The notes under the pieces are model-generated. The model had not been told where the DNA came from, ran no database searches, and saw only the letters and a list, made by a program, of their open reading frames with translations. A DNA stretch of 12,916 nucleotides, from NCBI GenBank assembly GCA_003601535.1, contig PIXW01000248.1, forward strand, positions 1 to 12,916, read 5' to 3'. Below, in pieces: positions 260-12,916 of this stretch (the first letter of the stretch is position 1; every line of letters starts with the position of its first letter). The position numbers and the translations under genes were made by a program. The stretch is from ANME-2 cluster archaeon. Lineage in GTDB: Archaea; Halobacteriota; Methanosarcinia; Methanosarcinales; Methanogasteraceae.

Positions 260-967
260 CTACTCGACCAGCACCTTTTCAGCCAGACCATGACCGATTG
301 TGACCAGTTGTTCTCCTATCCTGGCAAGTATGTAGGCACCTTGCTTGGGAGTCGGGGCTACCGTCTCTCTTCTGAGCAGGGTTATCTCAGCTCCTTCGTT
401 GAGCCCGAGTTGTCTGAACTTCTCTTGCAGATGAGTTCCACCGGTAATCCGTTCTACCGTGGCTTTTTCACCATCGTTCAGGTAGTTGATCTGGGTAGAT
501 CTCCCTTCCCTGGTCACAAAGACCTTCGATGCCTGACCCTCGCCCATTCTCATCTCTTCACCCTCGACCGCAAGTACCATGGTACGATCAGGGATATGGC
601 TCAGGAATATGAGTTCGCTCTCTTTTACGATGCCGCATTCGGATAGAAAACCTTCGAATTCCTTTCCGCCTTCAATCGTTTTGACTGTTCCCACGTCTCC
701 TTTCTCCAGTCTCAGTAGCGGAACTGTCTCTCCGCCCTTCTCCACATAGATCTTATCAGCCCATCCACGAGCTATGATCACTTTCTGATCACCTACTGCC
801 AGAGAAATGGGTCCCCAGTGCACATGCACCGGCTCGGTTGCAACCACATCAAGTGTAACCCCTTCCTTTATCCCGAGCTCCTCAAGGTGCTGCTTGACAT
901 CCAGACCACCTGTGATATCCTTAACGGTCACTGTTGTATCAGATTCCACATCCATCAATGAGTTCAT
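260..967 (-). CDS. Triple FeoA-domain protein (FeoA family, iron transport-associated)
   Basis: The 235-residue protein consists of three tandem FeoA (SH3-like) domains at about residues 11-76, 82-151 and 158-235. Each has the FeoA pattern: a short strand, a GG or GGK turn, a helix ending in LG or CGI, a hydrophobic strand, and a terminal GxAxKxxVE-like strand (ARGWADKIYVE, GEGQASKVFV, GHGLAEKVLVE). A classical FeoA is about 75-85 residues and works with the FeoB ferrous iron permease. No FeoB is in the window, so its partner is unknown. It has no membrane segment or signal peptide and is expected to be cytoplasmic. The start is supported by a strong Shine-Dalgarno, AAAGGAGGT, 7 nt upstream of ATG. 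The operator/promoter repeat at 1025-1080 lies upstream and suggests iron-dependent repression. The stop is TAG, followed by an in-frame DUF2325-like segment. Confidence 0.9.
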   Translation of the reverse strand: MNSLMDVESDTTVTVKDITGGLDVKQHLEELGIKEGVTLDVVATEPVHVHWGPISLAVGDQKVIIARGWADKIYVEKGGETVPLLRLEKGDVGTVKTIEGGKEFEGFLSECGIVKESELIFLSHIPDRTMVLAVEGEEMRMGEGQASKVFVTREGRSTQINYLNDGEKATVERITGGTHLQEKFRQLGLNEGAEITLLRRETVAPTPKQGAYILARIGEQLVTIGHGLAEKVLVE

Positions 968-1024: not shown

Positions 1025-1080
1025 CCTAGGTATGCAAATAATCTTCCCTAGAAAAGCTAGGTTTATTCAAAAAACCTAAT
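1025..1080 (-). promoter_or_regulatory. Iron-box-like promoter module, copy A (for the feoA-like gene)
   Basis: From right to left in transcript order the module has an inverted repeat CCTAG-AAAAG-CTAGG (1047-1061), overlapped by a second one, TAGGTTT-7-AAACCTA (1058-1078). A TATA-like A/T tract follows, read on the minus strand as ATTATTTGCATA around 1031-1042, and then CCTAGG (1025-1030). The layout repeats at 1678-1714 with the same 21-bp offset between CTAGG and the inverted repeat. CCTAR/YTAGG half-sites resemble DtxR/IdeR iron boxes. The module lies inside the 3' coding end of the DUF3793 gene, from its TAG stop inward. Confidence 0.65.
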
Positions 1081-1634
1081 TCCGCTCCTCTGATGATGTT
1101 GACAGGGTCTTCTCCTGAAAAGAGCCTTTTAATTATCATCTTCCTTGCACGGCGGTATTCGTCCATCCTCTTTTCGGATACTTCAGGGTCCCCGTATATC
1201 TTCCATAAACCGCACTTTGTGTTTCTGAGAGAGTTGAGTCCCATAAACCCTTTAACATCCTTCATCGGAATACCGAGAAATATTCCGATCTCAGGAGGGC
1301 ATCGATCGGTTGTATACCTGTGCCTGAGCATCTTCAATACATAGTCGATGGAATCAGACTCATATCCGCATTCGGATAGGAATTCCATCACTGATTCGTC
1401 TTTCAACAGTTCGTTCAACCGGTTCTGATCGAAAAACAGAACAACCGCATTTTTATCGGTCCTTTTCAACTCATAATAATCGATTTCAGATCCGATAAAG
1501 ATGCCTGCCTTATAACGGTCCCATACGTCCAGCAGCCTGCCATACTCATTGGAGATGTTCATCAGCGTTGCTGGTTTTCCACCTGCAATGGTAGCTGCGA
1601 TGCATCTCACGATTCTGTGAACCAGATATCTCAT
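1026..1634 (-). CDS. DUF3793 family protein
   Basis: This cytoplasmic protein of about 202 residues matches DUF3793, a family of unknown function often found near Feo genes. The clearest signature is CPPEIGIFLGIPMKDVKGFM in the centre, followed by a GLWKIYGDP segment, as in the family's PHEIGxFLGYPxxDVxGFI and WKVYxD motifs. The N-terminal GGKPATLMNI also fits the usual AGLKPANL-like stretch. A GTG at 1643 would add three residues, but the ATG at 1634 is preferred because AGGTGA lies 5 nt upstream of it. Its own iron-box promoter (1648-1714) sits immediately upstream, so it is probably transcribed separately from the methyltransferase gene before it. The last 12 or so codons double as the promoter/operator of the feoA-like gene. 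I infer a role in iron homeostasis from neighbours and operators; no catalytic motif is recognisable. Confidence 0.85.
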   Translation of the reverse strand: MRYLVHRIVRCIAATIAGGKPATLMNISNEYGRLLDVWDRYKAGIFIGSEIDYYELKRTDKNAVVLFFDQNRLNELLKDESVMEFLSECGYESDSIDYVLKMLRHRYTTDRCPPEIGIFLGIPMKDVKGFMGLNSLRNTKCGLWKIYGDPEVSEKRMDEYRRARKMIIKRLFSGEDPVNIIRGAELGFLNKPSFSREDYLHT

Positions 1635-1647
1635 GTTATTCACCTGT

Positions 1648-1714
1648 ATTAGGTTATCCTAATCCACATCTGTGGCATCTAGGTACATAAATAATCTACC
1701 CTAAAAAAATTAGG
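1648..1714 (-). promoter_or_regulatory. Iron-box promoter module, copy B (for the DUF3793 gene)
   Basis: In transcript order this contains the inverted repeat CCTAA-AAAAA-TTAGG (1700-1714), a TATA-like element read on the minus strand as ATTATTTATGTA (about 1684-1695), and CTAGG (1679-1683). At the predicted transcription start lies the palindrome ATTAGGTTATCCTAAT (1648-1663). TTAGGTTATCCTAA differs at one position from the core TTAGGTTAGCCTAA of the bacterial DtxR consensus, and archaeal DtxR-type repressors use similar sites. Operators flanking the TATA element and covering the start site suggest repression when iron is sufficient. Confidence 0.75.
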
Positions 1715-1735
1715 TTTTTGAACAAGAATCCGAAG

Positions 1736-2713
1736 TTACGAAATGGTCGGCTTTGATTTATTCCGCCCAACATACACCCACTGATCATACATCCCGGCAC
1801 CGTCCCGGTTGTCGATGATCCTCCCGCTCATACCAAGCTCATCCAGAACCTCTTTTAAGATGAGAATCTCCTCATTCTTATGAACCGTGAAGATGAGCAA
1901 TCCATTTTCACGCAGCAAGATAACAGATTCTGACATGATTCGCATCCAGAGATCCTTATTGAACGGATAGATCGCACCGAGCATAAATCCGGTGACACAG
2001 TCAAAGGTACCTGCAGAAAAGAACTGCGAGAGTTCGGTTGCATCCAGTACTATCGACCGGTGCGGGGCAAGTACGCCGTGCTCGAGCCCCTCGCAGATGG
2101 CGCACCGGTCAGAATCCAGACACTGCGGATCGCAGTTCAGTTCACGGAGCGCGATCGTCGCCATCCCGTTGCCGCAGCATATCTCGATCACATCTACGTC
2201 TGCAAAATCGATTCCTTCGGATTGTTCGATTCCTGTTAAGAGCGTTACGAGTCTATGCACACGGGATTCTGAAAATATCTCTGAAAAACTCTTTTTTTTA
2301 TGGATGCATCGATCACACAGCATCCGGTTCACAAGCATGATCGAATAATATTCGATTACTGCATCCATGAATTGCGAACCTGTTGTTTTTACGATGCGAA
2401 CGTTATCTGCGTGTTCACACAGTCTCATTGCATGATCTCTGAAATCAGGACTCCTGCATATCATATTGACGAAGATCGTCCAGAAGTCCTGATCCTCCGA
2501 ACGCATGAGAACCGCAATTCCGATCAACTCATCCTGATCTTTTATCTGGATCACATCATCAAATGGTATCTCTGATCTGGCGATCTCTGATAGGTACTCT
2601 TCTGTTGATTCACATCGCTTCTGGTCGTAGAAACTGCGTTCTATGAGATACAGAACCTCTGCGCAATCGATGTCCAGAAGATCGTGAAGAAGCATGGTCA
2701 TGAAAACGATCAC
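1736..2713 (-). CDS. Class I SAM-dependent methyltransferase with an unknown N-terminal domain
   Basis: The C-terminal half (about residues 170-320) is a Rossmann-type methyltransferase. Motif I is VIEICCGNG (175-183), an acidic LDSD follows strand 2 (199-202), VLDAT (222-226) and FDCVTGFM (237-244) follow, and a late strand GLLIFTV (271-277) is present. The N-terminal 130 or so residues have no domain I recognise. Cysteines are notable: CDRC at 133-136 and a cluster at 194, 198, 204 and 207. The substrate cannot be told. The longest frame opens with GTG at 2713, but a TATA-like GATATAAG (2717-2726) lies so close that transcription should start near 2695. The in-frame ATGs at 2701 or 2695 are therefore more likely starts, giving 321 or 319 residues. 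It is divergent from the aspartate kinase gene. No iron box was seen at its own promoter. Confidence 0.75.
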   Translation of the reverse strand: MIVFMTMLLHDLLDIDCAEVLYLIERSFYDQKRCESTEEYLSEIARSEIPFDDVIQIKDQDELIGIAVLMRSEDQDFWTIFVNMICRSPDFRDHAMRLCEHADNVRIVKTTGSQFMDAVIEYYSIMLVNRMLCDRCIHKKKSFSEIFSESRVHRLVTLLTGIEQSEGIDFADVDVIEICCGNGMATIALRELNCDPQCLDSDRCAICEGLEHGVLAPHRSIVLDATELSQFFSAGTFDCVTGFMLGAIYPFNKDLWMRIMSESVILLRENGLLIFTVHKNEEILILKEVLDELGMSGRIIDNRDGAGMYDQWVYVGRNKSKPTIS

Positions 2714-12275: not shown

Positions 12276-12916
12276 ATGAATAAAACAACAGAAGAATTAC
12301 CACTTCGATACGCCGAAAGGGAACTGCAACTGATCAGCATTGATCCTCTGGTAATGTTTGACAGGGAAGGGATCATCCTGGACGTGAACGAGGCTACAGT
12401 TCAAGCTACAGGCAGAACCAGGGAAGAGTTGATAGGAACTCCGTTTGCTGACTATTTCACAGATCCTGAAAAAGCTAAAGGGATAATGCTGGTCTTTGAA
12501 GCGGGAGAGATCAGGGATTATGAACTGGTCATGAAGGCAAAGGATGGAACCGAGACCCCGGTCTCCTACAACGCTTCGGTCTACAGGGATCAGAGCGGAG
12601 AGGCGGTAGGTGTCTTTGCCGCTGCACGCGACATCACCGAGTACAAGCGCGCAGAGCAGGACCTGCAGAATCTTCAGCACTACAATCGCGGATTGATTGA
12701 GGCAAGCCTCGATCCTCTGATAACCTTCAACCAGGAAGGCATCATCCTGGACGTGAACGAGGCTACAGTTCAAGCTACAGGCAGAACTCGGGAAGAGTTG
12801 ATAGGAACTCCGTTTGCTGACTATTTCACAGATCCTGAAAAGGCATATAAAGGAGTAATGCTGACCTTTGAAACCGGTGAGGTTCGGGATTACGAACTGG
12901 TCATGAAGGCAAAGGA
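12276..12916 (+). CDS. PAS-repeat sensor protein (5' part, runs off the window)
   Basis: 213 codons are visible. The first PAS domain (about residues 18-124) contains IDPLVMFDREGIILDVNEAT, TGRTREELIGTPFADYF and a PAC-type end VGVFAAARDITEYKRAEQDL. A short helical linker leads to a second, nearly identical PAS that the window edge cuts off. PAS domains bind small ligands or redox cofactors and feed a signalling output, most often a histidine kinase in such archaea. The output domain is not visible. No signal peptide or membrane helix precedes the first PAS, so a cytoplasmic sensor is likely. The first repeat starts abruptly (LQLISIDPL) compared with the second (RGLIEASLDPL), suggesting the array was trimmed at its 5' end. 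ATG at 12276 is the only nearby start. Confidence 0.92.
   Translation, partial: MNKTTEELPLRYAERELQLISIDPLVMFDREGIILDVNEATVQATGRTREELIGTPFADYFTDPEKAKGIMLVFEAGEIRDYELVMKAKDGTETPVSYNASVYRDQSGEAVGVFAAARDITEYKRAEQDLQNLQHYNRGLIEASLDPLITFNQEGIILDVNEATVQATGRTREELIGTPFADYFTDPEKAYKGVMLTFETGEVRDYELVMKAK
12372..12841 (+). repeat. Near-identical PAS repeat (12372-12472 and 12741-12841)
   Basis: Two 101-bp stretches, offset by 369 bp (123 codons), differ at only two positions. Downstream the second copy has one extra codon (Tyr in EKAYKG) and then continues to match until the window ends. Such DNA identity, not just protein similarity, means recent duplication or gene conversion within the PAS array. Confidence 0.95.

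Follow-up and report, generated by a model that had tools for sequence, protein, structure and literature searches.

Comparison of related genomes indicates that a promoter module present twice in the 12,916-nucleotide stretch of DNA analysed here (the window) very likely serves, in both copies, as an operator-promoter of a single iron-starvation regulon under a DtxR-family repressor, whose gene ends the feoA-feoB operon in relatives. One copy lies in front of a gene encoding three FeoA domains and the other in front of a DUF3793 gene, which makes DUF3793 a strong candidate for an iron-starvation protein, and the control network as a whole is most likely an iron switch. The window carries the following features at and around the two copies:

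260–967, minus strand: gene with three FeoA domains, 235 aa (Pfam FeoA, PF04023, E 2.6e-30, three stretches).
1026–1643, minus strand: DUF3793 gene (202 aa from the ATG at 1634, 205 aa from the GTG at 1643; Pfam PF12672, E 1.5e-41).
1026–1061, minus strand: core of copy 1 (triple-FeoA promoter), CCTAG-N5-CTAGG-N16-CCTAG, exact core match, TATA-like tract at about 1031–1041.
1075–1079, minus strand: fourth, upstream half-site of copy 1, TTAGG, N13 before CCTAG.
1649–1662, minus strand: putative third operator TTAGGATAACCTAA at the predicted DUF3793 transcription start, TTAGG-N4-CCTAA.
1679–1714, minus strand: core of copy 2 (DUF3793 promoter), CCTAA-N5-TTAGG-N16-CCTAG, exact core match, TATA-like tract at about 1684–1694.
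1730–1734, minus strand: degenerate upstream half-site of copy 2, TTCGG, N15 before CCTAA.
1736–2713, minus strand: gene with weak methyltransferase matches below the Pfam cut-off, upstream of copy 2 and downstream of neither copy.

Re-reading of the sequence agreed, in letters and coordinates, with the pattern that the sequence-only reading had described at both loci. On the plus strand, CTAGG (at 1026 and 1679) is followed by an A/T tract containing AAATAATCT, then by CCCTA and by an inverted repeat (CCTAG-N5-CTAGG at 1047–1061, CCTAA-N5-TTAGG at 1700–1714), with the same offset of 21 bp from CTAGG to the inverted repeat in both copies. Viewed on the minus strand, which is the sense strand, both copies have the form CCTAR-N5-YTAGG-N16-CCTAR, the N16 enclosing a TATA-like tract (TTATTTGCATA / TTATTTATGTA in the two copies). 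The inverted repeat CCTAR-N5-YTAGG thus represents the junction of two TTAGG...CCTAA palindromes, the right one of which encloses the TATA-like tract, and the half-sites are 10, 19 and 21 bp apart from centre to centre. The usual archaeal spacing from TATA box to start, on which the predicted starts are based, would place transcription from copy 1 at about 1010. The core of copy 1 overlaps the DUF3793 ORF, whose final codons and stop are formed, in frame, by the putative operator DNA. Membership of DUF3793 in its family is clear (142.6 bits against a cut-off of 25.1 for PF12672), and since many relatives stop at 189–192 aa and the predicted structure becomes unreliable at about residue 181, its C-terminal tail may lack a function of its own. 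No functional lead was obtained from the predicted DUF3793 fold.

The 45-base stretches starting at 1022 and 1675 are identical at 34 of 45 positions without gaps, a score exceeded by just three pairs in the window (12372/12741, 12494/12866 and 3754/3985), which were judged by position to be repeats inside ORFs. Near-identical tandem repeats, PAS-like by eye, also occupy 12276–12914, within an ORF that runs off the end of the window. Ten of the 14 [CT]TAGG/CCTA[AG] words in the window fall within 1025–1080 and 1649–1714 (overlapping words at 1025 and 1026 counted as two), and as dinucleotide-shuffled windows average 25 such words, the window is poor in them overall and concentrates them in the two promoters. 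The exact 15-position core, present twice, was absent from all 1000 dinucleotide shuffles, and five half-sites within 60 bp were reached by two of 1000.

The home assembly (1.67 Mb in 263 contigs, 78% complete) contains CCTARN5YTAGG at three places, compared to 22 for the reversed control. No excess over the reversed control was observed there for the full core with up to one mismatch (3 vs 3) or up to two mismatches (4 vs 54, the latter being 25 + 29), nor for the N16 palindrome (11 vs 310). The matches with up to two mismatches comprise the two window copies, a third exact copy at C26:1434 and an overlapping partial match. As the home genome by itself gives no excess at loose matching, support comes from the scarcity of exact sites, two of three being in the window, and from comparison with the family. 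The sequence-only reading had anticipated further matches in front of feoB, DtxR-family or iron genes; this was not seen in the incomplete home assembly, where none of the three sites precedes feoB or dtxR and dtxR lies at a contig end, but it was seen in the family. The module at C26:1434 precedes a 26-codon ORF that appears lipoprotein-signal-like by eye.

Family comparison included 17 genomes of what is probably ANME-2c. With up to one mismatch the core is present in all 17, giving 137 matches compared to 26 for the reversed control, and these precede feo operons ending in dtxR, flavodoxin genes, a FecCD permease gene and FeoA paralogues. What was first taken for a duplicated element does occur as two copies in the window, but these are better described as two among many copies of a regulon-wide module. 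For further analysis 136 of the 137 matches were taken, leaving out G007:C4, whose module precedes a beta-helix-type protein like the members of cluster 0, and two antisense shadows were then removed to give 134 modules. Base counts across these modules resolve two abutting palindromes, the left one TTNGGNTTTT-N5-AAAACCTAA with a gap of 13–15 and the right one TTAGGGYA...TATTTRYATACCTAA with a gap of 16. The left half-site, [CT]TNGG at N13–N15, was found in 114 of 134 modules (70 of them strict), compared to 2.7% of random places. At regulon loci the spacings that stand out are TTAGG-N16-CCTAA (85), N14 (29), N13 (12) and CCTAA-N5-TTAGG (69), against at most four for control words whatever the spacing; N16 and N5 were built into the search itself, N13 and N14 were not. 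Loci retrieved by the DUF3793 protein alone have the same half-site spacings. The spacers diverge, whereas three to four separate half-sites are retained, with copies at corresponding promoters in different genera, and an ORF of at least 120 aa starts within 100 nt of 80 modules on the sense strand compared to 12 on the opposite strand.

DUF3793, which a search of 60 genomes located in 19 (16 of the 17 family genomes and three in family f2), lies downstream of a module in all 16 family genomes that carry it (16 modules). The triple-FeoA gene follows 18 modules in 13 of 17 genomes, single-domain FeoA follows modules in 15 of 17, and flavodoxin follows 11 modules in 10 genomes, with DUF454 behind modules in six genomes and a FecCD permease behind one module (FeoB_N, Gate/FeoB_C, FeoC, FecCD, flavodoxin and DtxR domains were confirmed on one representative each). 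Other downstream proteins include methyltransferases and CbiX-like, CobN, beta-helix, cohesin-domain and NHL proteins. By eye, several of these have export-type N-termini, and a mix of such secreted-type proteins makes up the largest downstream cluster (27 modules). Several of the 134 modules have no obvious gene downstream. The feo operon, read through in examples such as G003, G008 and G012, runs feoA, feoA, FeoB G-protein, FeoB gate protein, membrane protein, FeoC-like protein and dtxR. At L151:2248–5757 (minus strand) FeoB exists as separate G-protein and gate proteins; two FeoA genes come before them, and a membrane protein, a FeoC-like gene and dtxR after them. A TTAGGTTACCTAAATGGGTAACCTAA match at G000:C158:4556–4581 looks like part of a mobile-element repeat region and not of the regulon; the surrounding sequence is rich in GGTAACC and follows an ORF that, by eye, resembles an integrase gene.

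Each of the 17 family genomes has one strong DtxR-type match. The gene lies about 3 kb behind a module on the same strand in 12 genomes, and in the remaining five (G000, G009, G011, G015, G016) the contig ends before that distance; in G001 its frame contains stops. The G003 orthologue has both Fe_dep_repress (PF01325, E 2.6e-20) and Fe_dep_repr_C (PF02742, E 2.6e-13), and the home-genome protein, encoded at C127:6377–6832, matches PF01325 with E 4.1e-20. D8, E11, H77, C99, E102 and H103 are present in the eight aligned family sequences. At the positions of the IdeR ligands Met10 and Cys102, Cys99 is found in nine of nine aligned DtxR sequences, and the Met position is Asp in eight and Asn in one. 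In the PDB, the G003 orthologue matches B. subtilis MntR best, and the home protein scores 124.6 bits against NCBIfam MntR, below the cut-off of 138. Judged by its residues, the candidate repressor is a hybrid, with Asp8 as in MntR and Cys99 as in IdeR, and is MntR-like overall. Its nearest PDB and NCBIfam relatives and Asp8 would therefore suit a signal of Mn(II), or of a mixed Mn/Fe pool, acting on the same DtxR operator as in MntR. We regard this as unlikely, because Cys99 takes the place of the Mn-type Glu (PMC10317159), because the identified targets include FeoAB, flavodoxin and FecCD with no Mn transporter recognised among them, and because bacterial DUF3793 genes are often under Fur-type boxes. 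Fe(II) is thus the favoured signal.

Presence of the motif follows presence of this repressor across the order. Among 132 members outside the family, 12 have an orthologue and at least two motif matches, six an orthologue with fewer matches, three the motif without an orthologue and 111 neither, so that an orthologue is found in 12 of the 15 motif-bearing genomes (at least two matches). This co-occurrence (Fisher p 2e-10) is uncorrected for phylogeny, uses an orthologue cut-off of about 48% identity and at least 115 bits that was chosen manually once the table was known, and counts overlapping opposite-strand matches twice. In the large family f4, the four genomes with three or more matches (G066, G069, G123 and G134) carry a DtxR of 51–54% identity besides the usual one of about 40%, whereas G027, G108 and G148 have such a gene or fragments of it, yet 0 or 1 motif match. 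Motif matches occur within 40 kb of the 51–54% dtxR in G066, G069 and G123, and two of three are on its contig in G134; the genes read behind modules in G066, G123 and G134 encode surface and CbiX-like proteins. Since G066, G069 and G123 (one or two contigs, same order) have both orthologue and motif, a related organism may suit laboratory tests.

A different regulator, for example a FeoC-like winged-helix protein of the feo operon with DtxR merely co-travelling, is very unlikely: a FeoC-like HTH protein with a Cys cluster is indeed encoded next to dtxR, but the half-sites match those of DtxR/IdeR boxes (PMC10317159). The idea that the repeats are a special (BRE-like) core-promoter form or a spread mobile element, to which TTAGGG at the expected BRE place and the many similar copies might point, can practically be dismissed given half-sites kept amid diverging spacers, copies at corresponding promoters of different genera, an extra TTAGG-N4-CCTAA exclusive to DUF3793 promoters and the tracking of motif with DtxR orthologue across the order.

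Following the DtxR reading, metal-loaded dimers would bind the TTAGG/CCTAA half-sites flanking and overlapping the TATA-like tract when Fe(II) is sufficient, and would exclude TBP/TFB and keep the genes off. At DUF3793 a further dimer may occupy the predicted start site, where TTAGG-N4-CCTAA is located (1649–1662); this site is absent from the triple-FeoA copy, and among the family modules it lies downstream of 9 of 16 DUF3793 modules and 0 of 118 others. TTAGG-N4-CCTAA corresponds to the single-dimer site published for IdeR (PMC10317159). When Fe(II) falls, the repressor would leave, allowing production of FeoA-type proteins, DUF3793, flavodoxin and the rest of the regulon.

Comparison with known systems revealed both likeness and difference. 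The modules contain TTAGG/CCTAA half-sites as in DtxR/IdeR operators, and the actinobacterial iron boxes of IdeR/DtxR (TTAGGTTAGSCTAACCTAA) have identical TTAGG/CCTAA repeats, sites that overlap the promoter and a repressor with a sulphur metal ligand (PMC10317159). In contrast, the four half-sites here span about 55 bp and surround an archaeal TATA-like tract, and the candidate regulator, at about 152 aa and MntR-like, leaves no room for the SH3 domain. The canonical 19-bp four-repeat IdeR box was absent at the modules examined, and the claim is accordingly limited to an element that would work like a DtxR operator, not one that is an IdeR box. Closer in lineage, DtxR has been proposed as a repressor of FeoAB in Methanococcus voltae, where the levels of both increase in parallel if Fe(II) goes unsensed; this resembles the repression predicted here, but the work is a proteomics study and no operator is given in the portion of it consulted (PMC8516115). 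The regulon studied here includes a feoAB operon under the motif, the feature by which an archaeal FetR regulon is recognised. Leyn and Rodionov reportedly described such FetR (DtxR-family) regulons in 2015, with archaeal FeoAB under the same kind of DtxR-family control.

Beyond the family, the sites in front of DUF3793 are less regular. Family f2 is mixed: two loci (L014, L022) have just TTAGG-N4-CCTAA before DUF3793, a module in G040 (C57:6312) is followed by a flavodoxin-like gene and then by DUF3793, and at L024, as at L162 (an ANME-3 record), none of the sites was found directly upstream of DUF3793. L160 has TTAGG-N4-CCTAA alone, and L161 has TTAGG-N16-CCTAA together with TTAGG-N4-CCTAA. 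An Altiarchaeota locus (L169:3–5501) carries feoB, triple-FeoA, dtxR, a half-site cluster, flavodoxin and DUF3793 in a row; its DtxR keeps C99, E102 and H103 without D8, E11 and H77, and transfer of the whole control unit between phyla is possible.

For bacteria, 69 loci were examined, taken from the 80 best-matching of at least 585 DUF3793 relatives. Flavodoxin lies within 300 nt on the same strand at 36 of these loci and a feoA/feoB-like gene in the examined flank at 18, giving flavodoxin or feo at 46 and neither at 23, as counted without a background rate in a neighbour search of limited sensitivity that used archaeal queries. Scanning 900 bases upstream with the Fur-type box consensus identified boxes with up to two mismatches at 31 of 69 loci compared to 1.7 expected from shuffles; on a subset of 62 loci the figures were 27 and about 1.2. 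Flavodoxin and DUF3793 thus adjoin in bacteria as well, with Fur-type boxes upstream, but repressor and operator are different, making the arrangement analogous, not homologous. The iron link of DUF3793 therefore seems to persist in a second domain of life under another repressor. Overall, the proposed tie of this protein to the FeoA regulon is reinforced by the module shared in 16 of 16 genomes, by the flavodoxin or feo neighbours (46 of 69) and by the Fur-type boxes (31 of 69), which suggests for DUF3793 a role alongside flavodoxin, in archaea and bacteria alike, that experiments could address. A term search of the literature for DUF3793 found nothing related.

A high iron demand is expected for anaerobic methane oxidation, and among the literature matches listed for ANME-2c, iron uptake and FeoB none dealt with how iron genes are controlled in ANME archaea. 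The module offers a readable address label for these genes, and points to an unlisted Cys-rich small ORF and to chelatase-like exported proteins. The small ORF, of 27–29 codons (L059:5636–5722, plus strand, and equivalents), immediately follows the best-conserved version of the module, with the spacer ...TATTTCCATACCTAAC (14 modules in 12 genomes), and encodes CEC.G.C.HC.C in 14 of 14 cases followed by an acidic tail. Its first codon is ATG in ten cases, GTG in two and ATA, which is not a usual start, in two. Among nine distinct sequences, differences number 116 at the third codon position, 72 at the second and 52 at the first; given this third-position bias, yet more non-synonymous (111) than synonymous (64) codon differences, the ORF is likely rather than proven to be coding.

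Tentatively, a single DtxR-controlled programme might carry ANME-2c and relatives through iron scarcity, in which flavodoxin would be swapped in together with DUF3793 as a dedicated iron-starvation partner in archaea and bacteria, the new 28-residue Cys-rich peptide (e.g., MGCECDGNCVHCRCKKAKAASEEVEDEE) would handle or report iron, and exported CobN/CbiX-like proteins would, like HmuS, pull iron from tetrapyrroles without oxygen. HmuS is reported to be a heme de-chelatase (PMC12583661), a precedent that suggests the module-linked CobN/CbiX-like proteins as candidate anaerobic heme de-chelatases. Seven modules of genus g2 (L059:6006–6240 and six more genomes) are followed by some 230 nt of conserved leader, behind which lies an ORF with a CPKC zinc-ribbon-like start; this leader is possibly a structured RNA, and its comparison with Rfam gave no convincing match. 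CobN-like (1552 aa) and CbiX-like proteins were observed behind modules at L061:3308–7963 (minus strand), L059:3149–5062 (plus strand) and L093:778–3999 (plus strand).
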